Source of the DNA: Blastococcus sp.
GTDB taxonomy: Bacteria > Actinomycetota > Actinomycetes > Mycobacteriales > Geodermatophilaceae
Reading direction: 5' to 3'
NCBI GenBank assembly: GCA_025965795.1
Contig: JAOPWH010000062.1
Coordinates: forward strand, 1-50,265
DNA: 50,265 nucleotides
The stretch's first letter is position 1; each line of letters begins with the position of its first letter. The position numbers were made by a program, and so were the translations under genes. A model generated the notes under the pieces. It did not search any database and was not told where the DNA came from. It saw nothing but the letters and a program-made list of their open reading frames with translations. Of this stretch, positions 332-23,669 are shown piece by piece.

Positions 332-375
332 ACCTTAGGTTCTTCGGTAGCGTTGGGCAACCAGACGTTTGGTTG
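332..375. promoter_or_regulatory. Operator 1 and minus-strand promoter between divergent crotonase genes
   Basis: CAACCAGACGTTTGGTTG (358-375) is an inverted repeat with 8 of 9 half-site positions matching, and is the clearest member of the seven-site set. On the minus strand a -10 TAAGGT (337 to 332) lies 17 bp from a -35 TTGCCC (360 to 355), so the operator overlaps the -35 of the gene starting at 255. A plus-strand -10 for the gene at 449 is not obvious. Confidence 0.65.
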
Positions 376-448
376 TGTACGGAAGCCTGACGGCCGGTTG
401 GATCCGGTCGCGGATCGGACCACGCACCGGGTGCGCGCTGGAGGAGCC

Positions 449-1261
449 ATGGAATCCGAACTTCTCGTCGACGAGGACGGGCCCATCGCATGGCTGACGC
501 TGAACCGGCCGGACCGGCTCAATGCGATCACCACCACGATGCTGGACCAGCTCGCCGATGCACTGACCGAGCTCGAGCACAGCGACACCAAGGTCGTGGT
601 CATCCGGGGCGCCGGGCGCGCCTTCTCCGCCGGCTTCGACATCAACCCGGACGCCGACGAGGTCGGGGAGGCGCACCGGCGAGGACCGGTTGCCGACCGC
701 AACCGCCAGGCGGCCTACATCGAGCGGTTCACCCGGATCTGGCGTCATCCCCAGCCCGTGATCGCGGCGATCCACGGGTTCTGCATGGCAGGGGCGTCAC
801 AGCTGGCCTGCTTCTGCGACATCACCGTGGTGGCGGAGGACGCGGTCATCGCAGCGTCACCGGCCCTGCCCCTGGGCGGCGGTTTCATCTCCCCGCTGTG
901 GTCATTCCGCGTCGGCCCGCAACGGGCCAAGGAGATGTCCTTCGTGCCTGGGCGCCGGATCGACGGACGCACCGCGGTCGAATGGGGGTTCGCCAACACG
1001 GCGGTCCCGGCCGCCGAGCTCGACTCGTACGTCCGCGACCTCGCCTTGTCGATCGCCACCGTTCCGGCGCCGGTCCTGCAGATGAAGAAGCTCGCGGTGA
1101 ACCGGGTCCAGGAGCTCCAGGGGTTCCTGACCATCGCCGGGTTCGGTGCCGACACCGACGCCCTCATCCACACCACATCCGCCGTCGGGGCGATCCAGGA
1201 GCTGGTGCGCGAGGTCGGCATCAAGGAAGCGATTCGGCGGTTCTCCAGCGGCCAGCCCTGA
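449..1261 (+). CDS. Enoyl-CoA hydratase/isomerase family protein lacking both hydratase glutamates
   Basis: A 270-residue single-domain crotonase. The ATG at 449 follows a strong GGAGGAG. It opens with the typical WLTLNRPDRLNAI strand, has the oxyanion segment GRAFSAGFDI, and AAIHGFCMAGASQLACFCD as the second CoA/oxyanion block. Where classical hydratases have GGG-x-E-LA, this protein has GASQLA (Glu replaced by Gln). Where the second catalytic Glu sits (PEI-x-LG), it has SPALPLG. A plain hydration reaction is therefore doubtful; isomerase, hydrolase or another crotonase chemistry is possible. It is a close paralogue of the protein at 12384-13205 and shares the altered residues. Operator 1 lies about 75 bp upstream. 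The acyl-CoA substrate is unknown. Confidence 0.9.
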   Translation: MESELLVDEDGPIAWLTLNRPDRLNAITTTMLDQLADALTELEHSDTKVVVIRGAGRAFSAGFDINPDADEVGEAHRRGPVADRNRQAAYIERFTRIWRHPQPVIAAIHGFCMAGASQLACFCDITVVAEDAVIAASPALPLGGGFISPLWSFRVGPQRAKEMSFVPGRRIDGRTAVEWGFANTAVPAAELDSYVRDLALSIATVPAPVLQMKKLAVNRVQELQGFLTIAGFGADTDALIHTTSAVGAIQELVREVGIKEAIRRFSSGQP

Positions 1262-1309
1262 ACGGCGCTGCGAGCCGTCCGTCGTTGGCCCCAGCGCACG
1301 AGGTGGCAC

Positions 1310-1726
1310 ATGTTCATGGCAGCCCTCCGCTGCGGGACGGTGCTCACGTACGAGGCCCGCGGCGTCCACGTGGTGGGCGCGAGCACCCGGTCGTGGACCG
1401 CGGCTCCTCCGTTGCCACGCGCACAGCCGAGGGCACAGCACGAACTCGAGGCGTGGCTCCGGGAACGATCGGCGACGACCGTCGATGCGCTGAAGAGGGG
1501 GCGCTTCGCGCAGCACCGCGGCAGGACCCCCCGCGCGCGCCTGCAACTCATGGCCCTCGACGGGCCGGCCCCGCTCCGCCCCACAGAGGCGCCGTGGCTC
1601 GATCGGTCGGCCCGCGACAGAGCGGTGGCGGCTAGACGGGGCGGTCGATGGGCTCCGCGCGGTGGGCCTCAGGCCGGCCTGTCATCTCGCCCAACTCGGC
1701 GATCTCGACACGGAGTTCCCGCTTGA
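1310..1726 (+). pseudogene. Degraded copy of a small protein family (see 28473-28853)
   Basis: An ATG-initiated frame 49 bp after the preceding crotonase. Its start, MFMAALRCGTVLTYEAR, matches the start of the protein at 28473 (MFTATLHCGVLLSFEAR). A second block also matches: RAQHELEAWLRERSATTVDALKRGRF against RAQRELLEWLRQRPETSVHALRRQRF. Between the two blocks this copy is about 13 residues shorter and lacks the PCRRHGYC segment. After the second block the similarity fades, and the frame runs about 95 bp antisense into the end of the ligase gene at 1632. I read it as a decayed or diverged copy. A working short protein is not excluded. Function unknown. Confidence 0.5.
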
Positions 1727-3296
1727 GCACCTTCCCGGAGGCGTTCCGCGGGAGTTCGGACGCGAACGTGACGCCCTTCGGCACCTTGTAACCGGCGAGC
1801 CGCTCGCGGCAGTGGTCGAGCAGCTCGGCCTCCGTGAGATCTTCGCCGCTGACGACGAACGCCCAGGGCACCTCGCCCCACCGTTCGTGCGGCCGTCCCA
1901 CGACGGCGACCTCGGTGACGGCCGGGTGCTCGTAGAGGGCCCGCTCGACCTCGAGGCTGGCGATGTTCTCGCTGCCCGACCGGATCATGTCCTTGAGCCG
2001 GTCGACGACGTAGAGGTACCCGTCGTCGTCGAGGTAGCCCAGGTCCTGCGTGTGCAGCCATCCCCCGCGGAAGGCCTGGCGGGTGGACTCGGGATCCTTC
2101 CAGTAGCCGTGGAAGACGGCAGGGGAGCGCATGACGATCTCGCCCACGACGTTCGGCCCGACCGTCTCCCCTCCCGGGTCCATGATGGCCAGCTCGACGA
2201 ACAGCAACGGCTTCCCGGGGCTGCCCCGCTTCGCCAGTGTCTGCGACCGCTGCAGCACGGTGACCGCGGAGCCGCCCTCCGTGAGGCCGTAGGCGTCGGC
2301 GAACCACGCGGACGGGAAGACCTTCAGCAGCTTCAGGATCAACGGCTCGGGAACCTTCTCGCCGCCGCTGACGATCAGTCTCACGGAGGAGAGATCCCGG
2401 CGCTCCACGTCCGGATGGGCCAGGAGTGCCTGGAGCATGGCCGGAGCGAGCCAGATCGTCGTCACGTGCTGTGCCTCGATGGCGGCCAGCACCCGGGCGG
2501 CGTCGAATCGGCGGTGCAGCACGAGGGAGCCGCCCACGTGCAGGAGGCTCGTGGCGGTCACGTCGAAGGCGCCGACGTGGTACATCGGTCCGCAGATCAG
2601 CCCGACGTCCTCGGCCGCATAGCCGAAGTCGCATGCGTGGACGAGGTTCTTCCAGGCGATGTTCCCGTGCGAGATCATCGCCCCCTTCGGGTAGCTCGTC
2701 GTGCCCGAGGTGAACACCAGTCGGTGCATGTCGTGCTCGGCCATCACGGCGAGTGCCGCGTCCGGGTCGTCGGTCATGAGCTCGTCCATGGAGACGGAGC
2801 CGTCGGCGGGCGGTCCCTCCATCGTCACGGCTCGTACCTGCACACCGGCCCTCTCGGCGGCTGCCGAGAGCCCCTCGGACAGTTCGGAGTCACAGAAGAA
2901 GAGCGCCGGCTCGGTCTGCCCGAGCAGGTGGGCGATCTCCGGCACCGCGAGTCGGAAGTTGGTCGGCATCGAGACGGCGCCGATGTAGCTCGAAGCCAGG
3001 ACGACCAGGAGGTACCGGTAGCTGTTGAACCCGAGGACGCCGACGATGTCACCCCGCCCCAGGCCTTGTGCCTGCATGCCGGCCGCCAGGCGGCGGACAT
3101 CGGCCCACATCTCGCCGTAGGTCCGCGACTGTCCTGCGAACTCGACTGCGGGGCTGTCGGGTGACCGATCGGCATGGCACTTCAGGGCCATCAGCCAGTT
3201 CGAATTGCCCGAGGGCCTGATGTCGTCCACGCTCCGCCTCTCTCCGTCGGTCGCCACTGTCTGCTGCCCCCCGTCGGCCGGGAGGATCCCGGTCAC
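1632..3296 (-). CDS. Acyl-CoA synthetase (AMP-forming, FadD-like)
   Basis: A 554-residue ANL-superfamily ligase that activates a carboxylic acid to its CoA thioester through an acyl-adenylate. The phosphate-binding loop LVFTSGTTSYPKG is at about residues 193-205, the adenylation motif DAYGLTEGG is mid-protein, and the C-terminal domain carries the hinge region (VVDRLKDMIRSGSENI) and the catalytic-lysine motif NASGK with Lys522. The length is normal for medium/long-chain or aryl acyl-CoA ligases. The GTG start at 3296 overlaps the stop of the LLM gene (GTGA). About 30 residues precede the first conserved helix, so a later start is possible. It is the last gene of a five-gene minus-strand operon that also holds hydratase, dehydrogenase and ring-hydrolase homologues, so it may activate a cyclic acid. 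That specificity is inference. Confidence 0.9.
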   Translation of the reverse strand: MTGILPADGGQQTVATDGERRSVDDIRPSGNSNWLMALKCHADRSPDSPAVEFAGQSRTYGEMWADVRRLAAGMQAQGLGRGDIVGVLGFNSYRYLLVVLASSYIGAVSMPTNFRLAVPEIAHLLGQTEPALFFCDSELSEGLSAAAERAGVQVRAVTMEGPPADGSVSMDELMTDDPDAALAVMAEHDMHRLVFTSGTTSYPKGAMISHGNIAWKNLVHACDFGYAAEDVGLICGPMYHVGAFDVTATSLLHVGGSLVLHRRFDAARVLAAIEAQHVTTIWLAPAMLQALLAHPDVERRDLSSVRLIVSGGEKVPEPLILKLLKVFPSAWFADAYGLTEGGSAVTVLQRSQTLAKRGSPGKPLLFVELAIMDPGGETVGPNVVGEIVMRSPAVFHGYWKDPESTRQAFRGGWLHTQDLGYLDDDGYLYVVDRLKDMIRSGSENIASLEVERALYEHPAVTEVAVVGRPHERWGEVPWAFVVSGEDLTEAELLDHCRERLAGYKVPKGVTFASELPRNASGKVLKRELRVEIAELGEMTGRPEAHRAEPIDRPV

Positions 3297-4258
3297 CGTC
3301 CGGCGTGGAAGCCGGCGAGGAGCTTCCGGGCCGGATCACCCGCTCCTACGGGCACCACGACGGGTCGCACGCCCGCCGCCGCGATCGCGTCGATGCGGTT
3401 GCGGCACTCCTGGGCCGAACCCAGGATGACCAGTTCGTGGAGCAGGTCCTCGGGGAGAAGGCCCGCCGCCTCGTCGGCCGGGGCCGCCTGCAGCTTCTCG
3501 AGGTCCCAGCCGCTGCGCGCCAGATTCGCCGCATAGACGCCGACCCGGCAGTAGCTCGCGATCTCCCGCCGGATGGAGAGCAGGTCCTCCTCCGTGGGCG
3601 AGACGCAGACCCGCTGGCTCAGCAGGGTCGCGTAGCCGGGACCGGACACCCGCCTTCCCTCCTGGGCAAGGTCGGCCGCGATGGTCAGGGGGACCAGATT
3701 CAGGATCAGGCCGTCCGCGTGCTCGTAGGCGACCTGCACCATCCTGGGTCCGAGGGCCGCCAGGAGCACCGGGGGCGGCGCGGCCGGTGCGTCCACCCGG
3801 AGCCGGCTCACCTTGGGGTCGGCCGGGTGATCCACGACGTCCCCACGGAGCGCATGCCTGACGACGGTCAGGACCCCTCGGGTGGAGGCGACCGGTCTCG
3901 CCAGGGCGCGGTCGTGCCGCTCCTCGACGATGGTGGGGGTGCTGACGCCCAGTCCGAGGGCGAACCGGCCCGGGGCCAGGCCTTCGACGGTGGCGCCCAT
4001 CATCGCGAGCAGGGCTGCGCTCCGGGTGCTGACGGGGACGATGGACGTCCCCAGGCGCAGGGCCGGGGAGGTCTGGGCCACCGCCCCGAGCAGGACGGCC
4101 GCGTCCAGCGACAGGACCTCCGAGAGCCATACTCCGCTCCAGCCGGCCCTGTCGGCGGACGCCGCGATGTCGACGACGTCCGCCGGACGGAGCCTCCTGG
4201 CCGGGATCGAGAGCTCGTACCCGAACGAATCCCAGAAGGGCTCGAAGGAATTCGTCAT
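3293..4258 (-). CDS. LLM-class flavin/F420-dependent oxidoreductase
   Basis: A 321-residue luciferase-like TIM-barrel protein. The pattern RLGTSIVPVSTRSAALLAM followed by GRFALGLGVSTPTIVEE is the barrel-core signature of actinobacterial LLM oxidoreductases, many of which use F420H2 rather than FMN. The ATG at 4258 lies 11 bp after the stop of the BadI-like gene. An upstream extension of the frame to 4336 would overlap that gene and adds nothing conserved. It is co-transcribed with acyl-CoA degradation genes, so a redox step on a ring or on an enoyl/oxo-CoA intermediate is plausible. Cofactor and substrate cannot be read from the sequence. Confidence 0.85.
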   Translation of the reverse strand: MTNSFEPFWDSFGYELSIPARRLRPADVVDIAASADRAGWSGVWLSEVLSLDAAVLLGAVAQTSPALRLGTSIVPVSTRSAALLAMMGATVEGLAPGRFALGLGVSTPTIVEERHDRALARPVASTRGVLTVVRHALRGDVVDHPADPKVSRLRVDAPAAPPPVLLAALGPRMVQVAYEHADGLILNLVPLTIAADLAQEGRRVSGPGYATLLSQRVCVSPTEEDLLSIRREIASYCRVGVYAANLARSGWDLEKLQAAPADEAAGLLPEDLLHELVILGSAQECRNRIDAIAAAGVRPVVVPVGAGDPARKLLAGFHAGR

Positions 4259-4268
4259 CCGGAGACCC

Positions 4269-5102
4269 TCAGTGGCTGCCGGCGCCGGCATAACGACCGA
4301 AGTCCGGGGGCCGCTTCTCGACGAACGCCAGCGCACCTTCCTTGCCCTCGTCGCTGGACACGAACAGATCGAGGCCGGCGTTGGCCAGCTTCTCGAGTCC
4401 GGCTTGGTGCGCGGTGTCGGCGTTGAACGAGAACTTGAGGAACTTCAGCGCGGTCGGGCTCATCGCCTTCAGCTCCGCCGCCCATGCCTTCGCCGTGCTC
4501 ATGAGCTCGTCGGGTGGGACGACGGCGTTCACCAGCCCCCAGTCCAGCGCCTGGGCCGCCGAGTACTGGCGGCAGAAGAACCAGATCTCTCGCGCGCGCT
4601 TCTGCCCGACGACGCGCGCCAGGTAGTTCGTCCCGAAGCCTGCGTCGAACGACCCCACGCGTGGGCCGACCTGACCGAAGCGCGCGGTCTCGGAGGCGAT
4701 GCTGATGTCGCACAGCACGTGGAACACGTGGCCACCGCCGATCGCGACGCCGTTGACGGCGGCGATCACCGGCTTGGGGATGTCGCGGATGAGGCCGTGC
4801 AGGTAGTCGGCGTCCAGGATCCCGTCCCGCGTGGGGCCGTAGTCCCCGGTCTCGGCGCGCTGCTTGACGTCGCCGCCCGAGCAGAACGCCTTCTCGCCGG
4901 CGCCGGTCCAGATGACCGAGCGCACCTCGTTGTCGGCCCACGCCCGACGGAACGCGTGCACCAGTTCGTCGATCGTCCGTCCGCGGAACGCGTTGTAGCG
5001 CTCGGGCCGGTTGATCGTGATGATCGCGGCGCCGTCGTCGACCTCATAGAGGATGTCGGTGTACCCGCTGGTGTCGCTGAAAGCCTCGCCGGATGCACTC
5101 AT
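4269..5102 (-). CDS. Crotonase-family C-C bond hydrolase of the MenB/BadI type (putative ring-opening enzyme)
   Basis: A 277-residue crotonase that carries the MenB/BadI subgroup signature and not the hydratase one: GGGHVFH at 122-128, GPRVGSFDAGFG at about 146-157 with the conserved Asp153, and REIWFFCRQY at 171-180. MenB makes 1,4-dihydroxy-2-naphthoyl-CoA by Dieckmann-type closure. BadI runs a related reaction in reverse, opening 2-ketocyclohexanecarboxyl-CoA to pimeloyl-CoA. No menaquinone genes are visible, and the neighbours are an acyl-CoA ligase, an SDR and a hydratase, which favours the ring-opening role. The ATG at 5102 follows TAGGAG and sits 9 bp after the SDR stop. MenB itself, or another diketone hydrolase, remains the alternative. 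Confidence 0.85.
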   Translation of the reverse strand: MSASGEAFSDTSGYTDILYEVDDGAAIITINRPERYNAFRGRTIDELVHAFRRAWADNEVRSVIWTGAGEKAFCSGGDVKQRAETGDYGPTRDGILDADYLHGLIRDIPKPVIAAVNGVAIGGGHVFHVLCDISIASETARFGQVGPRVGSFDAGFGTNYLARVVGQKRAREIWFFCRQYSAAQALDWGLVNAVVPPDELMSTAKAWAAELKAMSPTALKFLKFSFNADTAHQAGLEKLANAGLDLFVSSDEGKEGALAFVEKRPPDFGRYAGAGSH

Positions 5103-5111
5103 GTCGAACTC

Positions 5112-5861
5112 CTAACCTGCCATGGTGAGGCCGCCACTGACGCTCAGTGTCTGGCCGGTGATGTATGACGTGTCGTCGCTGGTGAAGAACCGCACGGCGT
5201 GCATGACGTCCTCCGGCTGTGCGAGCCGGCCCATCGGGATGACCCGGGCGAGCGAGTCCGTCAGCTTCTTCGGTGCACCGTGAAGCATCGCTGTGTCGGT
5301 CGGCCCGGGACACACGCAGTTGACGCAGATCTTGTGGCGGGCCATCTCACGGGCGAGCGCCTTGGTGAAGCCGATGAGACCGCCCTTCGCGCCGGAATAG
5401 ACCACCTCTCCGCTGCTGCCGACGCGGCCCGCGTCGCTGGAGATGTTCACGACCCGGCCGCCCAGGCCCTCGGCGATCATGCCCTCGAGGAAGGCGTGGC
5501 TGACCGCCATCGCGCCCAGGAGATTGATCGACATGATCTTGATCCGGAAGTCGGTCGTGGTCTCCATGAAGGGGTGGATCTCCTCCCACCCGGCGTTGTT
5601 GACCACGATGCGAGCCGTTCCGTAGTGGGCGACGACTTCGTCGCGGACCGCTACGACCGCCTCTGCATCGGCGATGTCCAGCTGGAAGGCGGTGGCGTCG
5701 CCGCCCTTCCCGCGGATCATCTCGACCGTTTCCTGAGCCGTCCCCTCGTTGATGTCCAGCGCCGCTACACGGCGGCCGGACTCGGCCAGGCCCAGGGCGA
5801 TGGCGCGGCCCATGCCGGAGCCTGCGCCGGTGACGACGGCCAGTGCGTCGGACTCGTTCAT
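5112..5861 (-). CDS. Short-chain dehydrogenase/reductase (putative hydroxyacyl-CoA dehydrogenase)
   Basis: A 249-residue classical SDR with the NAD(P)-binding motif TGAGSGMGRA near the N-terminus, the structural NNAG motif, a Ser in NISSDAGR, and the catalytic YSGAK (Tyr-x-x-x-Lys). The C-terminal GQTLSVSGGLTMAG is typical of 3-oxoacyl reductase/hydroxyacyl dehydrogenase SDRs. The ATG at 5861 follows AGGAG, 10 bp after the stop of the hydratase gene. Sitting between a competent enoyl-CoA hydratase and a BadI-type hydrolase, it fits the BadH step, oxidation of a 2-hydroxycyclic acyl-CoA to the 2-oxo form. The family is clear; the step is inferred from context. Confidence 0.88.
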   Translation of the reverse strand: MNESDALAVVTGAGSGMGRAIALGLAESGRRVAALDINEGTAQETVEMIRGKGGDATAFQLDIADAEAVVAVRDEVVAHYGTARIVVNNAGWEEIHPFMETTTDFRIKIMSINLLGAMAVSHAFLEGMIAEGLGGRVVNISSDAGRVGSSGEVVYSGAKGGLIGFTKALAREMARHKICVNCVCPGPTDTAMLHGAPKKLTDSLARVIPMGRLAQPEDVMHAVRFFTSDDTSYITGQTLSVSGGLTMAG

Positions 5862-5871
5862 GTGGGATCTC

Positions 5872-6624
5872 CTAGTTGTCTCGGGCGAAGAACTTCTTCA
5901 GGCCCTCTCGAGCACTCGGGTCGTCCATGAGCAGGCGCGTGGTCTCGATCTCGAGCGCGTAGCCCTCTCGGCTGTCGTCGAGCTGGATGCACCGCTTGAT
6001 CGCGGCCAGGGCCACCGGCGACCGGGAGGCCAGCTCGTCGGCGAGCTCGGTCGCGAAGGTCAGCACCTCAGCGGCCGGCAGCGCCCAGTGGACCAGCCCG
6101 AACTGCTCGGCCTGCGACCCGCTCACCGTCTCGCCTCGCAGGGCCAGCCGGAAGGCCAGGGCCCGCCCGCCGATCCGGGTCAGGCGCTGGGTACCTCCGG
6201 CGCCGGGCAGCAGCCCCAGTTTGATCTCCGGAAGTCCGTACGACGCGTCGGCAGCGGCGATGCGCAGATCGCAGGCCAGGGCGAGCTCGAAACCCCCGCC
6301 GAGCGCCGTCCCGTTCATGGCGCAGATCGTGGGGATGGGCAAGGCGGCGATGGTCGCGTAGGCGTTCTGCAACCGCTGGACGAAGGCCACCATGTCCTCG
6401 CCGCCGGTCGGGCTCTCGATATGGGTGCGGACCAGCTCCAGGTCCGCGCCCGCTCCGAAGTGTCGGCCTTCCCCGGTGACCACGAGGACACGAACGCCGG
6501 AATTCGGGCGCTGCAGTGTCGCCAGGACGTCCTCGAGGGCGGCGAGTACGCCCTCGCCGATGGCGTTGACCGGAGGCGAGTCCAGCGACACCGTCATCAC
6601 GGCGCCCGAACTGCGAACCTTCAC
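5872..6624 (-). CDS. Enoyl-CoA hydratase with both catalytic glutamates
   Basis: A 250-residue crotonase that keeps both catalytic acids of true enoyl-CoA hydratases: Glu in GGGFELALACD and Glu in PEIKLGLLPGAGGTQRL. It should add water across a 2,3-double bond of an acyl-CoA; in the operon context this could be a cyclic 1-ene-1-carboxyl-CoA, the BadK-like step. I chose GTG at 6624, preceded by GGAG, over a longer frame starting near 6663, because the longer frame would run through the promoter and operator at 6633-6653. It is the first gene of the minus-strand operon 6624 to 1632. Confidence 0.88.
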   Translation of the reverse strand: MKVRSSGAVMTVSLDSPPVNAIGEGVLAALEDVLATLQRPNSGVRVLVVTGEGRHFGAGADLELVRTHIESPTGGEDMVAFVQRLQNAYATIAALPIPTICAMNGTALGGGFELALACDLRIAAADASYGLPEIKLGLLPGAGGTQRLTRIGGRALAFRLALRGETVSGSQAEQFGLVHWALPAAEVLTFATELADELASRSPVALAAIKRCIQLDDSREGYALEIETTRLLMDDPSAREGLKKFFARDN

Positions 6625-6632
6625 GCTTCTCC

Positions 6633-6653
6633 AGCCTACCCACCGTTTGGTTG
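6633..6653. promoter_or_regulatory. Operator 2 with minus-strand -10
   Basis: CTACCCACC-GTTTGGTTG (6636-6653): the right half is identical to the consensus GTTTGGTTG and the left half matches 6 of 9. A minus-strand -10 TAGGCT (6638 to 6633) overlaps its edge and predicts a start of transcription near 6626, almost at the GTG at 6624. The racemase gene at 6844 diverges from here. Confidence 0.6.
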
Positions 6654-6843
6654 TCCGTGGCACAGTAGCAAGAGGGATGGCCGTGTCAACAGAGCGCGGG
6701 CGACCCGGCCGCCCGCCCGGGTGGCCGCTGGGAGCGCCAGGAGCGGTAGTGATACAACCAGGCGGTCGTCAGCGGGAGGCCGAACACCGGCCGCCGCTGG
6801 CAGGGCCCCGGCCCGCGTGCGCACAAGTCGAGGAGAGGTTCAG

Positions 6844-10354: not shown

Positions 10355-10382
10355 GAGTCCTCCTGAGTGCGGATGATCGAGC

Positions 10383-10419
10383 AAGCTACCAGCCAAACGG
10401 TTGGTCAACTACGTATGCT
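10383..10419. promoter_or_regulatory. Operator 3 flanked by divergent -10 elements
   Basis: CAGCCAAAC-GGTTGGTCA (10390-10407) matches the left consensus half at 8 of 9 and the right half at 6 of 9. A minus-strand -10 TAGCTT (10388 to 10383) abuts it on the acyl-CoA dehydrogenase side, and a plus-strand -10 TATGCT (10414-10419) lies 6 bp away on the epimerase side, so one protein bound here could control both. Confidence 0.62.
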
Positions 10420-14775: not shown

Positions 14776-14839
14776 GTGTCCTGATCCAGGTGGGGGAGAC
14801 GGTCGGTCCGACGAGAGTCGGCCGGCGGCAGGGCACGGG

Positions 14840-15481: not shown

Positions 15482-15502
15482 ATCCTACCATACACTTGGT
15501 AG
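15482..15502. promoter_or_regulatory. Operator 5 over the promoter of the TetR gene
   Basis: CTACCATAC-ACTTGGTAG (15485-15502). The arms CCTACCA (15484-15490) and TGGTAGG (15497-15503) form a perfect 7-bp inverted repeat. The minus-strand -10 TAGGAT (15487 to 15482) overlaps the site and predicts a start near 15475. It is somewhat further from the consensus than the other sites, as is common for autoregulatory operators. Confidence 0.62.
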
Positions 15503-15842: not shown

Positions 15843-15893
15843 TTGACCGGGCCGGCTACTCAGCTTACTGTCAATCAAACAACCGTTTGTGAG
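15843..15893 (+). promoter_or_regulatory. Promoter with operator 6 at the transcription start
   Basis: TTGACC (15843-15848), a 17-bp spacer and TACTGT (15866-15871) make a near-canonical housekeeping promoter, with a start expected at about 15878. Operator 6, CAAACAACC-GTTTGTGAG (15876-15893), matches the consensus halves at 7 and 6 of 9 and sits over the start site, an arrangement suited to repression of the six-gene plus-strand unit from 15910. Confidence 0.65.
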
Positions 15894-15909: not shown

Positions 15910-17043
15910 ATGGTCGCGGCGACGACTGTTGAGGGCGCGGCGCGGTCCCGGTTCCGGCGCGATGCCGAGGCGTGGCTGGCCGAGAACGTCTCGGAGTACT
16001 GGCGGCAGCACCGCGGCGCGCTGGAAGAGGCGGAGGAGACCCGGATCCGGGCGGAATGGGACCGGAAGCTCTACCAGGGCGGCTACGCCGGCCTCTCGCT
16101 CCCGGTGGAGTACGGCGGCCAGGGGCTGGGACTGGCCGAGGAAGTCGCCTTCGGCGAGCTGGCAGCCCGCGCGCAGGCCCCGGACGGGCTCGGGCGCATC
16201 GGCAAGATCCTGACCGCGCCCACGCTCATCGCGCACGGCACGGAGTACCAGAAGTCGACCTATCTCCAGCCGATCCTGTCCGGCGAGCACGTCTGGTGCC
16301 AGGGTTTCTCGGAGCCCGGTTCCGGGTCCGACCTGGCCAGCGTCGCCTGCTCGGCCCGCCGGGTGGACGGCGGCTTCCTCGTGCGTGGCACCAAGACCTG
16401 GACCAGCTTCAGCAGGCACTCGCATCGCTGCCTCCTCCTGGCCCGCAGCGACGAGTCCGCCCCGCGGTACCGGAACCTCTCCCTCCTGCTGCTCGACATG
16501 CACGCCAGTGGGGTCGAGATCAGTCCGATCCAGCAGATCTCCGGAAGCCGGCACTTCTCGGAGACCCACTTCGACGACGTGTTCGTCGCCGAGGAGGACC
16601 TCGTCGGCGAGGAGGGTGAGGGCTGGAAGATGGCGATGACCGTCCTGGCCAACGAGCGTGGGGCGGTCGAGGGGATCACCCGCTACGTCGAGATCCGGGC
16701 CGACATGGACCTGCTCCTGGAGTGCTGTTCGCAACCCGGAGAGGCCATGGAGCAGCTGGAGAGCCTGAACATCCGCGTCGAGATCGTCCGGACGCAGGTG
16801 AGCAAGGCCGTCTCGCGCCAGGACGACGAGGTGGCGTTCCTCCGGTCCGCCATGGTGCTGAAGGTCATGTGGAGCGAACTCTGGCAGGAGCTGACCAGCC
16901 TCGCGGCAAAGCTCAGCTGTCCGGTGCACCGGGCCCACTGGCGGCATCAGTACCTGGAGAGCCGATCAGCGACCATCTACTCGGGCACCTCGGAGATCCA
17001 GCGGAACATCATCGCCGAGCGCGTCCTCGGGCTGCCGAAGTGA
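15910..17043 (+). CDS. Acyl-CoA dehydrogenase, alpha-type subunit of a split pair
   Basis: A 377-residue acyl-CoA dehydrogenase. The middle domain has QGFSEPGSGSDLAS (flavin/substrate loop), the C-terminal domain ends IYSGTSEIQRNIIAERVLGLP. The usual short-chain-type catalytic Glu before GT is Ser (YSGTSEIQ). A Glu at 249 in LANER lies on the helix used for the base in isovaleryl-type and in the alpha2beta2 actinobacterial enzymes (FadE26/27, FadE28/29 types). The ATG at 15910 follows CAGGGAG. The GTG of the next gene overlaps the stop codon, so the two products are probably made in equal amounts and form a heterotetramer. Confidence 0.9.
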   Translation: MVAATTVEGAARSRFRRDAEAWLAENVSEYWRQHRGALEEAEETRIRAEWDRKLYQGGYAGLSLPVEYGGQGLGLAEEVAFGELAARAQAPDGLGRIGKILTAPTLIAHGTEYQKSTYLQPILSGEHVWCQGFSEPGSGSDLASVACSARRVDGGFLVRGTKTWTSFSRHSHRCLLLARSDESAPRYRNLSLLLLDMHASGVEISPIQQISGSRHFSETHFDDVFVAEEDLVGEEGEGWKMAMTVLANERGAVEGITRYVEIRADMDLLLECCSQPGEAMEQLESLNIRVEIVRTQVSKAVSRQDDEVAFLRSAMVLKVMWSELWQELTSLAAKLSCPVHRAHWRHQYLESRSATIYSGTSEIQRNIIAERVLGLPK

Positions 17044-17927
17044 GCGCCGTCGACGAGATGGGGCTGGGCGAGGTCGGCGTCGTCGCGTCCGAGGCGTTGC
17101 GGGAGATCCTGGCCCGTGCGGTGGGCGGCTCGCCGGTCGCCTCCTACGTGAACGAGCGGCCACTCTCCTGGGACAGCGTCCGTCAGGGCGACTGGGACAT
17201 GCTCGGCGCCGCCGAGGAGGACGGCGGGGCGGGTGCCTCGCTGCGGGACCTCGTCGAGCTGGCCCGGGTGTGGGGGAGCGCCGTCGTCCCCTCGCCCCTG
17301 GTACCGACGCTGATGGCCAAGCGGTGGTCGCCTGCGGCCCGGGCCTGTGCAGGCCCGGTGACCGTCTCGGTGCCGACCCGCGCGTCCGGTGGCCGGGCGG
17401 TCACTCCCTTTGGCGTCGAGCCCGACGTCCGGGTGCTGCTCGACACCGAGGGTGACGGCGTCGTGGCGAAGTTCGTCGTCGTCGGGGCCGATCCCTACGC
17501 GCCGTCGCTGCGACTGGCGGAGGGCGGTCAGGCCACCACGTGGTCCGGCGTCGCCGCTGCCGAGCTGCGGGTCGTCTGGGCCGCGGAGGCGACCGGCTGC
17601 GCGTCCCGCATGCTCGGCGACGCGGTGGCCTACGTCAAGGAACGCCAGCAGTTCGGACAGCCGATCGGCCGGTTCCAGGCGATCAAGCACCACCTGGCGA
17701 ACGCCCACCTGCTGGCGGAGCAGGCCGAGACCGCGGTGATCCTGGCCAGCCTGGAACCCGAACGCGCGCCGGCGGCCTCGCGCTTCGCCTTCGACGCCAG
17801 CCTCCGGGTCATCGAGATCGCCGTCCAGGTGCACGGGGGACTCGGTTTCACCTGGGAGATGGGGCTGCACATGTACCTACGTCACGTCAGCGCCCTGCGG
17901 GAGCTGGCTGCGGGGCTGCCGGCATGA
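17040..17927 (+). CDS. Acyl-CoA dehydrogenase, short beta-type subunit of a split pair
   Basis: 295 residues, about 80 shorter than a self-sufficient acyl-CoA dehydrogenase. The C-terminal half is recognisable: AYVKERQQFGQPIGRFQAIKH (FAD/dimer-contact arginine and Gln-Phe motif) and VQVHGGLGFTWEMGLHMYLRH. The middle domain is abbreviated and lacks the EPGSGSD loop. This matches the beta subunits of mycobacterial alpha2beta2 enzymes that act on steroid side-chain CoA esters, where the partner gene supplies the catalytic base. The GTG at 17040 overlaps the stop of the alpha gene (GTGA). A longer frame upstream lies wholly inside the alpha gene and is rejected. The substrate is probably bulky; that is inference from the family. 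Confidence 0.85.
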   Translation: MSAVDEMGLGEVGVVASEALREILARAVGGSPVASYVNERPLSWDSVRQGDWDMLGAAEEDGGAGASLRDLVELARVWGSAVVPSPLVPTLMAKRWSPAARACAGPVTVSVPTRASGGRAVTPFGVEPDVRVLLDTEGDGVVAKFVVVGADPYAPSLRLAEGGQATTWSGVAAAELRVVWAAEATGCASRMLGDAVAYVKERQQFGQPIGRFQAIKHHLANAHLLAEQAETAVILASLEPERAPAASRFAFDASLRVIEIAVQVHGGLGFTWEMGLHMYLRHVSALRELAAGLPA

Positions 17928-18889
17928 CGTCCGCCGCAGACCTCCCCGGGGCGCCGGCGTACGCCGATCTGCCGCTTCTCCCGCGGATCGGCATACCTCA
18001 CTCCTGGGAGTTCTTCGGCGACGGCGACGAGCTGGGCACGCTGAACTTCCTGGACGACGGCGCCGTCCTGGCGGCCCTCCGGGAGCCGCAGACGGGGGAA
18101 CGCATCGGGCTCTCGCTCGACCCGGCCGAGATCGCGCCGCCGCTGTACGGGCGGCAGACGATGCAGCACACGGTGATGCAGATCGACCGGAACATCTGGG
18201 ACGACCGGCTCGACGTCTTCTACCCGCAGGGCGCGTCACAGTGGGACGGCTTCCGGCACGTCCGGTGTCGTGAGCTCGGCTTCTACGGCGGGGTGACCGA
18301 GGATCCGCCGGAGATGGGTGACCGCCTGGGCATCCACCACTGGGCAGGACGCGGCATCGTCGGCCGGGGCGTCCTGCTGGACGTCGAGCGGTATCTGACC
18401 GGGACAGGCGCCGACTACGACGCCTTCACCGAGTTCTCGGTGACGGCCGAGGTGCTGATGGCGGTCGCCGCGGCGCAGGGGGTCACACTGCGCCGCGGGG
18501 ACGTTCTCTGCGTCCGCTTCGGCTGGATGACGCGGTACCGCGGCCTGACCGGGGACGAGCGCCGCGCCTACGCCTCGGCCGAGGGCAGCCCTGCGTTTGC
18601 GGGCCTGGCGGCCGACGAGTCGACGGCCCGCGCCCTGTGGGACTGGCAGGTGGCGGCGGTCGCGTGCGACAACCCCGGTGCGGAGGTTGCCCCGGGCGAC
18701 CCCGCCGTGGGCAGTCTGCACCGGCGGCTCGTCCCCGCGCTGGGGATGGTCCTCGGGGAGCTCCTGGACTTCGACGCGCTCGCCGAGCGGTGCGCCGCCG
18801 ACGGGCGATGGTCGTTCCTGTTCACCGCGGTCCCGCTCAACATCCGCGGGGGTGTTGGTTCGCCCGCCAACGCCATCGCCATCCGCTGA
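17924..18889 (+). CDS. Cyclase-family (kynurenine-formamidase-like) hydrolase
   Basis: A 321-residue member of the cyclase superfamily, metal-dependent hydrolases acting on amides, lactones or cyclic ketones. DELGTLNFLD near residue 30-40 and the C-terminal RGGVGSPANAIAI frame the domain. The canonical metal motif HxGTHxDxxxH appears as QGASQWDGFRH: the Asp and last His are kept, the first two His are Gln. The same substitution occurs in the second copy at 19920. The ATG at 17924 overlaps the stop of the dehydrogenase beta subunit (ATGA). Next to a luciferase-like oxidoreductase, it may hydrolyse a lactone or ring ketone; that role is inferred. Confidence 0.85.
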   Translation: MTSAADLPGAPAYADLPLLPRIGIPHSWEFFGDGDELGTLNFLDDGAVLAALREPQTGERIGLSLDPAEIAPPLYGRQTMQHTVMQIDRNIWDDRLDVFYPQGASQWDGFRHVRCRELGFYGGVTEDPPEMGDRLGIHHWAGRGIVGRGVLLDVERYLTGTGADYDAFTEFSVTAEVLMAVAAAQGVTLRRGDVLCVRFGWMTRYRGLTGDERRAYASAEGSPAFAGLAADESTARALWDWQVAAVACDNPGAEVAPGDPAVGSLHRRLVPALGMVLGELLDFDALAERCAADGRWSFLFTAVPLNIRGGVGSPANAIAIR

Positions 18890-18897
18890 GGGGGGCC

Positions 18898-19923
18898 ATG
18901 AGGCGATCCATCGTCTTCGCCGCCCCCGAATTCCTGGCGCTCGTACCGGCGGCGCGGTCAGCCGAGTCGGCTGGTTTCCACCGGATCTGGACGACCGAGA
19001 ACCCCGGTAGGGATGCCCTCGTCCGTGCACTCACCTACGCGCTGCACACCGAGCGCATCGGGGTGGCCACGGGGATCGCCTACGCGTTCACCCGAGCGCC
19101 GCTCGCCCTCGCCGCGGCCGCCTCCGACATCGACACCGCGACAGGTGGCCGCTTCGCCCTCGGGATCGGCGCAGGGACCCAGGGCATGCGCTCCCGCTGG
19201 TACGGCACCGATGACTTCGACCATGCCGCCAGCCGCATCGAGGAGTACGCCGACCTGCTCCGGACGGCCTGGAGGGCCGAGCGCGGCTTCCGGTTCGACG
19301 GCCGCTTCTACCGGGGGGCCTACTCCGAGATGGACGGCGCCCGCAGGGCGGTCCCCGTCTGGGGCTCGGGGATCAACCGCACGATGCTCCGCATCGCGGC
19401 GCGGTCCTGCGACGGCGTCGCTGTGCATCCACTGGGCGCGAGCCTGCCCTACCTCGACGCCGTGGTGCTCCCCGCCGTCGCGGAAGGGGCGGCCCAGGGC
19501 GGAAGGAGCCCAGAACTGGCACTGTGGCGGATGACCTCGATCGACGACGACGGCGATGCGGCTCGGCGGCGGGCCCGGCGGGGTCTCGCCTTCTACTTCT
19601 CCACCCCCAGCTATGCCGCCCCCGCGGAGGAGTCCGGCTGGGGAGAGGTCGCGGGAAAGGTGCGCGACCTGTTCGGGGAGCGCGGCGGCGACTGGGACGC
19701 GATGGCGGGGCTGATCCCCGACGAGATGGTGGCCCACTTCTGCCTTGCCGGCACTCCGGAGGAGGTCCGGCGGACGTGGGCCGCCCTGGAGCCGCAGTAC
19801 GAGGCCCGTGGGGTGACCGAGGTGGTGTTCCAGACGGTGGGCGGCGGCCCGGGCGCGACGACCGTGAAGAACCTCGAGTCGATCGCGGCGGTGCTCGCGC
19901 CGGAGACCGGGCTGCCGACGTGA
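18898..19923 (+). CDS. LLM-class flavin-dependent oxidoreductase
   Basis: A 341-residue luciferase-like protein. The barrel-core patterns ERIGVATGIAYAFTRAPLA and GRFALGIGAGTQGMRSRWYG are present, and VWGSGIN is near the mid-point. The ATG at 18898 follows GAGGGGGG. It is not closely similar to the LLM protein at 3293 and carries insertions that fit F420-dependent or type II Baeyer-Villiger-like members. Lying between two cyclase-family hydrolase genes, with overlaps on one side and 8 bp on the other, it may produce the substrate for one of them, for example an inserted-oxygen lactone. Cofactor and reaction are not established. Confidence 0.85.
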   Translation: MRRSIVFAAPEFLALVPAARSAESAGFHRIWTTENPGRDALVRALTYALHTERIGVATGIAYAFTRAPLALAAAASDIDTATGGRFALGIGAGTQGMRSRWYGTDDFDHAASRIEEYADLLRTAWRAERGFRFDGRFYRGAYSEMDGARRAVPVWGSGINRTMLRIAARSCDGVAVHPLGASLPYLDAVVLPAVAEGAAQGGRSPELALWRMTSIDDDGDAARRRARRGLAFYFSTPSYAAPAEESGWGEVAGKVRDLFGERGGDWDAMAGLIPDEMVAHFCLAGTPEEVRRTWAALEPQYEARGVTEVVFQTVGGGPGATTVKNLESIAAVLAPETGLPT

Positions 19924-20954
19924 CTGACGACGCCAGCGGCCGGCTCGGGGCCGAGGAGCGGGACCCGCATGTCCGCGCGCTCCGCGACCGGCCCGCCGCC
20001 GAGAACGCGAGCGCGCGGCCGACCGCCGCCGAGCCCCTCGAGGACTTCCGCACCATCGGGCGCCGGGTCAGCAACTGGGGGCGCTGGGGAGACGACGACG
20101 AGCGGGGGACGCTGAACCTGATCGGTCCCGCGCAGTTGATCGACGCGGCCGGTCTGGTCAGGACCGGCAAGATGTTCGCCCTCGGCATCCCGTTCGACGA
20201 CCAGGGGCCTCAGGACGGTGGGATCCGGGGCAATCCCGCACGCCTGATGAAGGAGACGGGGGCGCACCCCCAGGGTTTCCCGGGCGCCTTCCGCTACGCC
20301 GACGACTACGTCTTCATGGCTCTGCAGTCGGCTTCGCAGTGGGACGCCCTGGCCCATGTGCACTACGACGGTGCGCTCTACAACGGCTTTCCGTCGTCGA
20401 GCGTCGACTTCCGCGGGGCGGGGCGCTGCGCCGTCACGAACCTGAGTCCCGGCGTCGCCGGGCGTGGCGTTCTGCTCGACGTGGCCCGATGGCGGGGTGT
20501 CGACTGGCTGGACGTCGGTACGAGGATCGGGCCGGAGGACCTGGACGAGGTTGCCCGGGCGCAAGGTGTCGAGGTCCGCGCGGGCGACATCCTGCTTGTC
20601 CGCACCGGCTGGCGACGCAGGTTCCTCAGCGACCTCGACCGGCGGGCGTTCAGGGCGGGGGAGCCCGGACTCAGCGTCCGCTGTGCCGAGTGGCTGCGTC
20701 GGCACGACGTCGCCGCCGTCGGCAGCGACAACTTCGCCGTGGAGGTGCTCCCGGGGGAGTACCCGGACGAGTACCTGCCGCTGCACATGATCGCGATCCG
20801 GGACATGGGCATGCCGCTCGCCGAGATCCTCGATCTCGAGAGCCTCGCGGAGGACTGCGCCGACGACGGAGTCTTCGAATTCCTCTTCACCGGACCGCCC
20901 CTGTCATTCACCGGCGGCGTGGGGTCGCCCGTCAACCCCCTGGCCCTGAAGTGA
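19920..20954 (+). CDS. Cyclase-family (kynurenine-formamidase-like) hydrolase, second copy
   Basis: A 344-residue cyclase-superfamily protein related to 17924-18889. It has DDERGTLNLI, the altered metal motif SASQWDALAHVHY (the canonical HxGTHxDxxxH with the first two His replaced; Asp and last His kept), and FTGGVGSPVNPLAL at the C-terminus. The first 45 residues are poorly conserved, so the GTG at 19920, overlapping the LLM stop (GTGA), could be replaced by a later start. Two divergent copies in one operon suggest two successive hydrolytic steps, or two stereoisomers. Substrate unknown. Confidence 0.85.
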   Translation: MTDDASGRLGAEERDPHVRALRDRPAAENASARPTAAEPLEDFRTIGRRVSNWGRWGDDDERGTLNLIGPAQLIDAAGLVRTGKMFALGIPFDDQGPQDGGIRGNPARLMKETGAHPQGFPGAFRYADDYVFMALQSASQWDALAHVHYDGALYNGFPSSSVDFRGAGRCAVTNLSPGVAGRGVLLDVARWRGVDWLDVGTRIGPEDLDEVARAQGVEVRAGDILLVRTGWRRRFLSDLDRRAFRAGEPGLSVRCAEWLRRHDVAAVGSDNFAVEVLPGEYPDEYLPLHMIAIRDMGMPLAEILDLESLAEDCADDGVFEFLFTGPPLSFTGGVGSPVNPLALK

Positions 20955-21051
20955 GGACGCTCATCGGTTCGACGCGGGACCTTCGACGACATGGATCTCG
21001 CCCGCGCCTTCCTGGGTGTGGTCCGAGCCGACCGGACGACGAGAGAAGAGC

Positions 21052-21633
21052 ATGACCACGAGGAGACCGCTGCGGCCGGAGCCGGCCTGGGCGCACGCCA
21101 GGTCGCTCGTCGCCCTGCGTGCGTCCGCCGACCGTGCCGGCAACCCGGCGCTCGATCCGCGCCAGGCGATCCAGGAGGTGATCCACCGCTACTGCTGGGC
21201 CTTCGACGAGCGCCGGGCCGACATCCTCGCCGAGTGCTTCACCGACGACGCGGTCTGGCAGGCGAGCGTCATGGGGGAGACCCGTGTCGGCCCCTTCACG
21301 GGGCGGGCTTCGGTGGGGGAATGGCTCACCCGGTTCTGGGCGTACCAGCGGGATCAGCGGCGCCACTTGATCCTCAACTTCATCGTGGAGGAGATGGACG
21401 AGGACTCCGCTACCGCGCTGGCCTATCTGCTGCTCATGGGCTCCAGCCATGCGGAGTCTCGGCTGGAGACCACGGGGTTCTACCGGCTGGGCTACCGCCG
21501 CGAGGAGGGCGTCTGGCGGATCCGGACGTTCCATGCCGGCTTCGACTCGCCGTACTGGCCGATGGAGGTGCGCGACATGTCCCCGGAGGTGCGCGCGCGG
21601 TTCGGCATCCTCGACCCGGTGCAGCCCGACTGA
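21052..21633 (+). CDS. SnoaL-like/NTF2-fold protein
   Basis: A 193-residue protein whose central part has the pattern of SnoaL-like (NTF2-fold) proteins: IQEVIHRYCWAFDERRADIL then ECFTDDAVWQAS, and a late strand with FYRLGYRREEGVWRI. Members include ketosteroid isomerase-like and dehydratase-like enzymes and ring-hydroxylase small subunits, and they often act on cyclic substrates. About 45 residues precede the domain. The ATG at 21052 follows GAGAGAAGAG. It lies 97 bp after the second cyclase gene and probably closes that operon. Catalytic role not determinable. Confidence 0.75.
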   Translation: MTTRRPLRPEPAWAHARSLVALRASADRAGNPALDPRQAIQEVIHRYCWAFDERRADILAECFTDDAVWQASVMGETRVGPFTGRASVGEWLTRFWAYQRDQRRHLILNFIVEEMDEDSATALAYLLLMGSSHAESRLETTGFYRLGYRREEGVWRIRTFHAGFDSPYWPMEVRDMSPEVRARFGILDPVQPD

Positions 21634-21660
21634 GCAGTACCGAGCGGACGGCGTAGGGCT

Positions 21661-22476
21661 CTAGGTGCCGAGGCGGATCAGCGCCTCCTGCGACGCCGAC
21701 GCCACGAGGACGCCGTCGCGGTCGAAGAACATGCCGTGCGACAGCGCCCGGGACCCGGCGTAGCTGGTGCTCCGCTGCGCGAACAGCAGCCAGGCGTCCG
21801 CGCGGAACCGCCGGTGGAACCACATGGTGTGGTCCAGCGAGGCGCCGATGCGGGTGATCCCGGGCCGGCGCAGCGGCATGTGGGCCGTCCTGGTGAGTGT
21901 CAGGTCCGACGCGAAGGTGAGCGCTGCGGCGTGCACCGACGACTCCTCGCCCAGCGCGGTGCGGCTGCGCAGCCAGGTCAGCTGCTCGGCCGGTGCCGGA
22001 ACCTCGCTCGTGGCGACGGGATCGACGTAGCGGAACTCGATGGGGGCCCGGACGTCGCCGTTCGTGCCCGGAGGCACGTAGGCGCTCTCGACCAGCTCCT
22101 CCGGTCCGGCGGCCTCCGGTGCGTCGTCCTGGTAGTCCGCGCCCGGCTCCGGGAGGTGGAAGGACACCAGACCGGTGAAGATCACGCGGCTCGCCTGATG
22201 GGCGTCGACCCGGCAGGTCGAGAGCGTGCGGCCCTCGCGCACGGTCGTGACGCTGTACCCGACCGGGAGCGCAGGGTCCCCGGGCCGCACGAAGCAGGAC
22301 TGCAGGGAGTGTGCGTCCCGGTCCCTCGGCACGCTCAGCGCCGCTGCTCGCAGCGCCTGGGCGGCCACCTGACCGCCGAAGATCCGGCCGTGGGCCCCGG
22401 TCAGGCACCAGCCTTCGAACGACCCGCGGGACGTCTTCTCGACCTCCAGCAGCGGGGCAAGAAGGTGTTCCGCCAT
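21661..22476 (-). CDS. Acyl-CoA thioesterase II (TesB-like, double hotdog)
   Basis: A 271-residue TesB-type thioesterase that hydrolyses acyl-CoA to free acid and CoA. GRIFGGQVAAQALRAA and HSLQSCFVRPGD mark the first hotdog. HAAALTFASDLTL with the conserved Asp at about 191, and SLDHTMWFH, mark the second. The ATG at 22476 begins MAEHLLAPLLEVEK. It diverges from the thiolase-like gene at 22540, with operator 7 between, so it belongs to the regulon and may relieve CoA sequestration during catabolism. A second TesB (30471) belongs to the housekeeping part. Confidence 0.92.
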   Translation of the reverse strand: MAEHLLAPLLEVEKTSRGSFEGWCLTGAHGRIFGGQVAAQALRAAALSVPRDRDAHSLQSCFVRPGDPALPVGYSVTTVREGRTLSTCRVDAHQASRVIFTGLVSFHLPEPGADYQDDAPEAAGPEELVESAYVPPGTNGDVRAPIEFRYVDPVATSEVPAPAEQLTWLRSRTALGEESSVHAAALTFASDLTLTRTAHMPLRRPGITRIGASLDHTMWFHRRFRADAWLLFAQRSTSYAGSRALSHGMFFDRDGVLVASASQEALIRLGT

Positions 22477-22507
22477 GGTTTTCCAGCTCTCCCGAATCTC
22501 AGGTTCC

Positions 22508-22533
22508 CAACCAACCGTTTGGGATGCTAGCGT
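22508..22533. promoter_or_regulatory. Operator 7 and leaderless promoter of the thiolase operon
   Basis: CAACCAACC-GTTTGGGAT (22508-22525) matches the left consensus half at 8 of 9, and its right half begins with GTTTGG. The plus-strand -10 TAGCGT (22528-22533) predicts a start exactly at the ATG at 22540, so the thiolase mRNA should be leaderless. The operator fills the -35/spacer region. Confidence 0.65.
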
Positions 22534-23667: not shown

Positions 23668-23669
23668 CC

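Follow-up and report, generated by a model that had tools for sequence, protein, structure and literature searches.

Genes of the cluster and the palindromes between them

The window, that is, the whole stretch of DNA that was analysed (50,265 nucleotides of Blastococcus sp. contig JAOPWH010000062.1), carries a large set of genes for acyl-CoA catabolism, which were assigned by Pfam domain matches. These begin with the enoyl-CoA hydratase ECHa (449-1261, plus strand, on ORF 326-1261) and a presumed minus-strand operon encoding ECHc, SDRa, ECHb, a luciferase-like monooxygenase and an acyl-CoA ligase (1632-6597). They continue with a plus-strand CoA-transferase family III gene (6844-7938, on ORF 5749-7938), the acyl-CoA dehydrogenase ACADa (9221-10354, minus, on ORF 9221-10408), an NAD-dependent epimerase/dehydratase-like gene (10482-11465, plus, on ORF 10401-11465) and the enoyl-CoA hydratase ECHd (11482-12273, minus). 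A TetR-family gene (14840-15448, minus, TetR_N and TetR_C_24) encodes the only regulator that a domain search found among 30 ORFs scanned. The acyl-CoA ligase ORF LIGb (13198-14850, minus, AMP-binding) overlaps the end of tetR and thus probably belongs to its operon, which presumably ends with the enoyl-CoA hydratase ECHe (12384-13205, minus); homologues of LIGb also lie near TetR homologues in several loci elsewhere. Further along lie a plus-strand run of ACADb, ACADc, a cyclase, a luciferase-like gene, a second cyclase and a SnoaL_4 gene (15910-21633), an acyl-CoA thioesterase gene (21661-22476, minus), and THLa, THLb, OB2 (ChsH2-like), ECHf and the 3-oxoacid CoA-transferase A/B genes (22540-28237, plus, Pfam and NCBIfam).

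Among the solved structures related to the thiolase and OB proteins is 6ok1 (Ltp2-ChsH2), and those related to the thiolase also include benzoylsuccinyl-CoA thiolase (7pxp), with 4yzo and 7yvy as the best thiolase matches. ACADb matches several solved acyl-CoA dehydrogenases, and the cyclase matches one uncharacterised entry. Judged from these likenesses, the cluster may carry out an aldolase or thiolase reaction on an acyl-CoA that is branched or cyclic, which does not in itself name the substrate.

An earlier note on this DNA had described seven 18-bp palindromes in the catabolic part of the window, and every one was recovered where it had been placed. Its consensus CAACCAAACGTTTGGTTG fared less well, with only two of the seven sites falling within 3 mismatches, and CWACCAAMCGKTTGGTWG describes them better. 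Operator 1 (358-375; full-matrix score 27.0, rank 1) lies upstream of ECHa (ATG 449), and operator 2 (6636-6653; 24.5) lies between the divergent ECHc operon (ATG 6597) and the CoA-transferase III gene (GTG 6844). Operator 3 (10390-10407; 20.3) separates ACADa (ATG 10354) from the epimerase-like gene (ATG about 10482), and operator 4 (12310-12327; 24.5) precedes ECHd (ATG 12273). Operator 5 (15485-15502; 22.0), whose centre lies 45.5 bp ahead of the tetR start, would serve putative autoregulation, and operator 6 (15876-15893; 23.0) stands before the dehydrogenase pair ACADb/ACADc (ATG 15910). Finally, operator 7 (22508-22525; 23.5) lies between the thioesterase gene (ATG 22476) and the THLa operon (ATG 22540). 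An eighth site, weak and tentative, lies ahead of the CoA-transferase III gene (6755-6772) and ranked next at 11.1.

Specificity and position of the putative operators

With leave-one-out matrices, every site ranked within the top 7 among about 50,000 window positions (1, 5, 7, 5, 7, 7 and 6 in window order). When the window was shuffled 100 times with its dinucleotides preserved, an average of 0.01 positions scored at least 16, the maximum was 16.3 and none reached 20, compared with 20.3-27.0 for the seven sites. The housekeeping half (29000-50265), in which the earlier note had seen no site, yielded a top score of 8.3 among the positions listed there. A matrix built from 33 sites of ten other loci again placed the seven at ranks 1-7, a test that is only semi-independent because those 33 sites had been found with the window's matrix; here the seventh site (17.1) barely exceeded the 4-bp register at 15872 (17.0), and the weak eighth site scored 11.5.

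A genome scan had been put forward as the check on the regulon, and its outcome leaves the regulon standing: matches with at most 2 mismatches occurred only in the cluster, where operator 1 had 0 mismatches, and on contigs C110 and C207, which hold four sites between divergent catabolic or transport genes. One locus on these contigs pairs an acyl-CoA dehydrogenase with an ABC importer of the branched-chain type, and in another a MaoC gene faces a run of epimerase, ligase and dehydrogenase genes. At 3 mismatches, the only level at which the cluster sites at 10390 and 15876 match the genome pattern, the scan was noise (28 forward and 26 reverse matches versus 39 and 28 for a reversed control pattern). 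A scan across the taxonomic family gave 7 forward matches in G000, one of them the shifted register at 10386, versus 3 for the control pattern, with 3 versus 1 in G039 and 4 versus 4 in G060. Among 112 family genomes, in each of which at most 28 TetR and 17 ACADb first-look candidates were scored, only G000 and G039 had a best TetR match below 1e-30, and the same two alone had an ACADb match of at least 56%.

All seven sites are intergenic, as previously claimed, given start codons chosen by the analysts from ribosome-binding sites and domain starts; the longest GTG/TTG ORFs would cover sites 1, 2, 3, 6 and 7. By approximate gene limits, the intergenic share of positions 1-28853 is about 10%. 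Each of the seven has a TANNNT hexamer overlapping it or no more than 6 bp away, compared with 16% of random intergenic 42-mers, which bears out the earlier observation of -10-like hexamers and removes the exception made there for operator 1. The predicted promoter of the ACADb operon (TTGACC-17-TACTGT, 15843-15871, plus strand) is likewise as first described, with operator 6 beginning 4 bp past its -10 box. By these gene models, ten putative start codons face the seven sites, where at least eight transcription units had been estimated.

Thirteen of 42 sites scored above 12 in a second palindrome register 4 bp away (one of 43 sites, near a locus end, was dropped), including operator 3 (10386-10403, 15.4) and operator 6 (15872-15889, 15.8). 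Scores in the second register averaged 8.96, compared with 4.74 (sd 0.71) when the flanks were random with matched composition. None of 1000 permutations of the four flank bases came up to the observed mean, and 421 of 1000 exchanges of flanks among sites did; the flank preference is therefore ordered and untied to particular sites. The second register may reflect paired dimers, and an extended single operator explains it equally well.

Co-occurrence of the operator with the proposed repressor

The protein encoded at 14840-15448 matches PF00440 (4.9e-15) and PF17932, TetR_C_24 (4.8e-24), and its AlphaFold model (pLDDT 92.5) has nine helices. It thus shows the TetR_N helix-turn-helix and an all-helical C-terminal domain, together with a palindromic operator near its own promoter, a feature that is common, if not universal, in the TetR family. 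The earlier note had named this protein as the candidate binder, and the joint occurrence of site and homologue in several phyla supports the proposal, with a strong site missing just ahead of tetR at 17 of 35 loci. In ten loci with TetR homologues of 39-58% identity, 33 sites were found, compared with a mean of 0.10 and a maximum of 2 in 20 shuffles. These sites precede ACADb, THLa, ECHa and TetR: one stands before ACADb in L050, L051, L054, L055, L056 and L058 (L093 has none), and one before THLa in both of the other loci where THLa has a match (L050 and L057). L054-L056 come from the culturable relatives Pseudonocardia endophytica, Saccharopolyspora spinosa and Amycolatopsis echigonensis. 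In all eight Chloroflexota loci with 34-38% homologues (L059, L061, L063, L065 and L067-L070), CTACCAAACGKTCGGTAG lies 60-130 bp upstream of the TetR match and begins 4 bp after a TATAAT. The same palindrome is thus found next to genes for related repressors of other phyla, and very probably it is what the cluster repressor binds.

The association has its gaps. A site scoring at least 16 within 400 bp upstream of the TetR homologue was present in 18 of 35 loci, a count drawn from 41 loci with L085-L090 outside it. The loci lacking such a site include L053, with a 53% homologue, and several Bacillota loci. In the latter the recognition helix is the same, an identity that is partly circular because the peptide pattern YHYISSKE was among those used to find the loci; L064 has only 137 bp upstream of tetR. 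Two Chloroflexota loci outside the 35-locus count, L087 and L089, with weaker or partial matches, had no strong site upstream of the match, and L071-L090 as a group showed no enrichment (7 sites versus 3.85 in shuffles).

The 17 loci without a strong site speak for the idea that the main binder is a regulator encoded elsewhere, such as another TetR of the same broad group, with the local protein controlling itself or nothing. A search of the organism's own genome with the TetR query gave 12 matches, the query among them, and more distant TetRs of genomes G038 and G052 also have palindromes of the TACC-GGTA type upstream, so related proteins may share operators. However, the site lies upstream of this very protein's homologues in several phyla, the next own-genome TetR among the matches listed is just 29% identical (C118), and the site is absent from 27 of 28 loci, each of about 3.5 kb, that hold more distant TetRs (25-36%) from the window's taxonomic family, which together make an outside regulator improbable.

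Slightly less probable still is that at some sites the protein activates, or both activates and represses. Operator centres lie anywhere from 23.5 to about 200 bp from the start codon (82.5 bp for operator 1), and FasR, an activator, is among the weak family matches, but the closeness of all seven sites to -10-like hexamers and the position of the Chloroflexota operators directly after TATAAT are the geometry of repression. It is scarcely credible that the motif reflects a promoter element, a repeat or chance similarity with no protein involved: four of nine half-site positions are A/T and hence promoter-like, yet the motif has dyad symmetry, scores far above shuffled sequence and is kept beside the same regulator in other phyla.

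Related systems and a proposed mechanism

By Foldseek E-value, the closest solved structure is PfmR (3vpr, 3.6e-10), followed by KstR2, whose TM-score is higher (0.87 versus a TMq of 0.80 for PfmR). In sequence, PfmR is the fourth-best distinct solved relative (phmmer 6.7e-18, about 30% identity). According to passages in PMC7022988, PfmR (TTHB023 of Thermus thermophilus) is a TetR protein that represses genes of the acyl-CoA and phenylacetate type and has sites both at its own promoter and at others; its older published operator is TACCGACCGNTNGGTN. The window's TetR would share this layout. Seven of the eight Chloroflexota operators match this consensus with 0 mismatches and the eighth with 1. 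The seven window sites differ from it at 4, 1, 3, 2, 4, 5 and 3 of 13 positions, a median reached by 0.2% of random 26-mers, and the in-vitro TTHB023 consensus fits them more poorly. On this comparison of motifs, the window operator may be close to that of PfmR, a published operator that the earlier note did not name.

KstR2 of M. tuberculosis (PDB 4w97, 4w1u), to which the Rhodococcus protein 2ibd is similar, has the same fold and a related sequence (1.6e-16), and its recognition helix reads SGSLYHHF compared with KGSLYHYI in the window's TetR. It represses a ring-degradation regulon and probably senses a CoA thioester made by a ligase of that regulon. KstR, in turn, is a TetR-family protein that controls a catabolic regulon of actinobacteria through many scattered sites. 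Mismatch counts at all seven sites uphold the view that the window operator belongs to neither: the KstR2 operator ANCAAGNNCTTGNT shows 2-3 mismatches of 10 at every site, and the KstR operator TNNAACNNGTTNNA shows 3-4 of 8, no better than random 26-mers. The protein also scores 28.6 bits against the KstR model NF033703 (cut-off 280), and comparison with the seven sites led to rejection of the SbtR and MbdR operators.

In the open literature searched, a scope outside which most subscription journals lie, neither this regulon nor the 14-base core ACCAACCGTTTGGT with five variants was found in print. Combined with TetR, CGTTTGGTAG returned only unrelated-looking papers, and for TACCGACCG the sole relevant-looking paper among the matches listed was PMC7022988.

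The fifth-ranked structural neighbour, AibR (PDB 5k7z, about 24% identity), has the same fold and, by its entry title, was solved with isovaleryl-CoA and operator DNA; it serves as a model for the proposed ligand mode. Another of the neighbours, DarR, binds c-di-AMP, and the fold by itself is thus no proof of an acyl-CoA ligand; such a ligand would accord with both the structural neighbours and the regulated genes.

In all likelihood, the TetR protein of the cluster is an autoregulated, probably acyl-CoA-responsive repressor, and the palindromes serve as its operators. The computed support consists of the sites, their specificity and position, their cross-phylum co-occurrence with the regulator, and the fold; TetR binding, repression, the operon limits and the CoA-thioester ligand are what we infer from it. 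A TetR dimer would bind CWACCAAMC/GKTTGGTWG (centre at the slash) on or just past the -10 box and block RNA polymerase at about ten start points. It would repress its own gene together with the acyl-CoA ligase, as well as the acyl-CoA dehydrogenase, hydratase, thiolase/aldolase, thioesterase and CoA-transferase operons, and would also control at least two loci on other contigs, the ABC importer locus and the MaoC-facing run. Repression would be lifted once an acyl-CoA of the pathway, in the simplest case the one made by the ligase encoded next to tetR, occupies the C-terminal pocket. A more elaborate scheme is rather unlikely: a regulator-operator pair spanning Actinomycetota, Dormibacterota and Chloroflexota, with an undescribed alicyclic/isoprenoid-type CoA pathway in the first two, in which some of the operators, built as two overlapping palindromes 4 bp apart, would take up two dimers cooperatively and others one, grading repression within a single regulon.

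With its presumably autoregulated repressor, the system clearly belongs to a familiar type of control and is probably a PfmR-like TetR regulon for acyl-CoA catabolism. For a large degradation cluster that is found again in several Actinomycetota, it supplies an operator and a regulator that can be tested. By predicting which scattered genes form a group, including the importer and the second ligase locus on other contigs, it gives a handle for finding the substrate. It is also a possible acyl-CoA biosensor, and it would extend the PfmR-type operator to other phyla.

Palindromic sites of the window

Seven 18-bp palindromes were found exactly where the earlier note had placed them (starting at 358, 6636, 10390, 12310, 15485, 15876 and 22508), and their alignment yields the consensus CWACCAAMC|GKTTGGTWG. 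When each site was omitted once from a symmetric weight matrix (leave-one-out), its rank out of about 50,000 positions was, in window order, 1, 5, 7, 5, 7, 7 and 6. The full matrix gives the seven scores of 20.3-27.0 and the eighth-best position, intergenic 6755-6772, a score of 11.1; across 100 dinucleotide-shuffled versions of the window, positions scoring at least 16 average 0.01. The proposed absence from the half at 29000-50265 also held, with a top score of 8.3 among the positions listed there. As claimed, all seven sites are intergenic, given the report's choice of start codons, in a region (1-28853) that is about 10% intergenic by approximate gene limits. Likewise, each of the seven has a -10-like TANNNT that overlaps it or is no more than 6 bp away, compared with 16% of random intergenic 42-mers, and at the promoter of ACADb (one of an acyl-CoA dehydrogenase pair) TACTGT is followed 4 bp on by the operator.

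Sites beside homologues of the TetR regulator

The TetR protein encoded at 14840-15448 (-), carrying TetR_C_24, is the only regulator found among 30 scanned ORFs. Its homologues were collected at 41 loci from a single scan of genome contigs. Nine loci (L050-L058; Dormibacterota, Frankiales, Sporichthya, Acrocarpospora, Pseudonocardia, Saccharopolyspora and Amycolatopsis) hold homologues at 42-58%, and L093, in the family genome G039, holds two, at 39 and 43%; these ten loci contain 33 sites against a shuffle mean of 0.10 (20 shuffles), with at least one site in each. Ten sites were found at L059-L070 (31-38% homologues; 10 of 12 loci positive) against 0.90 in shuffles. L071-L090 showed no enrichment (5 of 20 loci positive, with 7 sites in all; 3.85 in shuffles), and the 25-36% homologues from the window's own family yielded one site across 28 loci of about 3.5 kb each. 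A site scoring at least 16 within 400 bp upstream of tetR was present at 18 and absent at 17 of the 35 loci examined out of 41.

At all eight Chloroflexota loci with 34-38% homologues, a site lies ahead of the TetR match at a distance of 60-130 bp, and TATAAT stands 4 bp before the site. The operator after TATAAT plus 4 bp is nearly invariant across these loci (L059, L061, L063, L065 and L067-L070, of which L069, Aquidulcis, presumably belongs to this phylum), making the unit a candidate ready-made repressible promoter. No strong site lies upstream of the weaker or partial matches at Chloroflexota L087 and L089. Paralogous TetR genes, each with its own upstream site, occur about 1 kb apart at L093 (8903-9505 and 10286-10858) and about 17 kb apart on Frankiales contig JAOPWK010000347.1 (L051 and L057).

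At 13 of 42 sites there is a further palindrome register, offset by 4 bp, with a score over 12. This exceeds what motif self-similarity yields when the flanks are randomised (500 trials: mean 5.2 sites, at most 12). The preferred flank bases come in a particular order (observed mean reached in 0 of 1000 permutations) and are exchangeable between sites (421 of 1000 swaps); two overlapping dimers at some operators and one extended operator both fit.

Palindromes also lie upstream of more distant TetR genes, namely CTACCAACTGGCCGGTAG at G038:C1:6806-6823 (about 150 bp; 31%) and CTACCAACCGGCCGGTAG at G052:C17:276172-276189 (about 70 bp; 26%); operators of the TACC-GGTA class may thus extend beyond the clade of the window's TetR.

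Predicted target genes and distribution of the cluster

Upstream sites recur with the predicted target genes. They precede the ACADb homologue at L050, L051, L054, L055, L056 and L058, and the enoyl-CoA hydratase (ECHa) homologue at L051, L054, L055, L056 and L058. The thiolase THLa has a match at two loci, L050 and L057, and is preceded by a site at both. At L093 neither the ACADb homologue, which has another gene directly upstream, nor the ECHa homologue is preceded by a site.

The window's own genome (G000) was scanned with CWACCANMCRNTTGGTWG at up to three mismatches, with the reversed pattern as control. Of the matches with at most two mismatches, six fell inside the cluster, including one in a shifted register (10386), and four outside it (C110:6844, C110:6956, C207:5260 and C207:5432). 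Three-mismatch matches are at noise level, yet cluster sites 10390 and 15876 belong among them; totals for the whole scan were 28 and 26, against 39 and 28 for the control. The C110 pair (L091) separates a run of periplasmic-binding-protein/branched-chain-type ABC transporter genes from an acyl-CoA dehydrogenase gene, whose longest ORF spans site 6956 and whose RBS-bearing start and domain are both downstream of it. The C207 pair (L092) has an epimerase/ligase/acyl-CoA dehydrogenase run on one side and a MaoC gene on the other. These neighbours are of the kinds expected in one catabolic regulon. Within the window, ORFs at 38664-44870 (+), judged by eye from their translated starts, also resemble a branched-chain-type ABC importer; in contrast to the C110 importer, these carry no operator in the matrix scan.

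Among 112 family genomes, with at most 28 candidates per genome scored for TetR and at most 17 for ACADb, only G000 and G039 have a top TetR match under 1e-30 (5.4e-47 in the latter; runner-up G024, 8.8e-28, 36%), and ACADb matches of at least 56% are confined to the same two (next 40%). A family pattern scan at up to one mismatch gave 7 matches in G000, 3 in G039, at most 4 elsewhere and none in 61 of the 112, with control counts of 0-6 per genome (3 in G000); by itself it is weak support for the regulon. Because of this scarcity in the family, and because eight proteins of the cluster share 68-89% identity with their counterparts on the Dormibacterota MAG contig L050, the cluster (1-28500) looks horizontally acquired. 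Horizontal transfer is probable; alternatively, the same pattern may be a question of binning. ORFs 1310-1726 (+) and 28473-28853 (+), at opposite cluster ends, begin alike (MFMAALRCGTVLTYEAR and VFTATLHCGVLLSFEAR) and have no Pfam match; they may be two copies of one small protein, on either flank of the cluster.

Relation to PfmR and proposed regulation

The operator had been judged unlike those of KstR and KstR2, and both were rejected, as the window sites match neither consensus. The PfmR consensus is TACCGACCGNTNGGTN (Agari et al. 2012, as quoted in excerpts of PMC7022988). Against this quoted form, the Chloroflexota operators show no mismatch in seven of eight cases and one in the eighth; the window sites have 1-5 mismatches in 13 positions, and 0.2% of random 26-mers reach their median. 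An AlphaFold model of the window's TetR protein (28-row alignment, pLDDT 92.5) gave PfmR as the best Foldseek hit by E-value, with a TM-score of 0.80 compared with 0.87 for KstR2; further neighbours were AibR with isovaleryl-CoA and DarR with c-di-AMP. The solved structures closest in sequence are, in order, 2ibd, SCO3833 and 3dcf, then PfmR and KstR2. A literature search of partial coverage found neither this regulon nor the core of its operator in print. The system is probably a PfmR-like TetR regulon, of a kind already known; new are this cluster and the other phyla.

Since the operator overlaps or comes after a -10-like hexamer, we infer that TetR binds there and would repress by blocking transcription initiation. 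A pathway acyl-CoA would relieve the repression, plausibly one produced by the acyl-CoA ligase (13198-14850) whose ORF overlaps the end of tetR. The predicted regulated enzymes comprise the acyl-CoA dehydrogenase pair, hydratases, an SCP2-type thiolase with a ChsH2-like OB protein, a type-III CoA-transferase, luciferase-like monooxygenases and PF04199 hydrolases, a set that suggests a branched or alicyclic acid as the substrate of the cluster.
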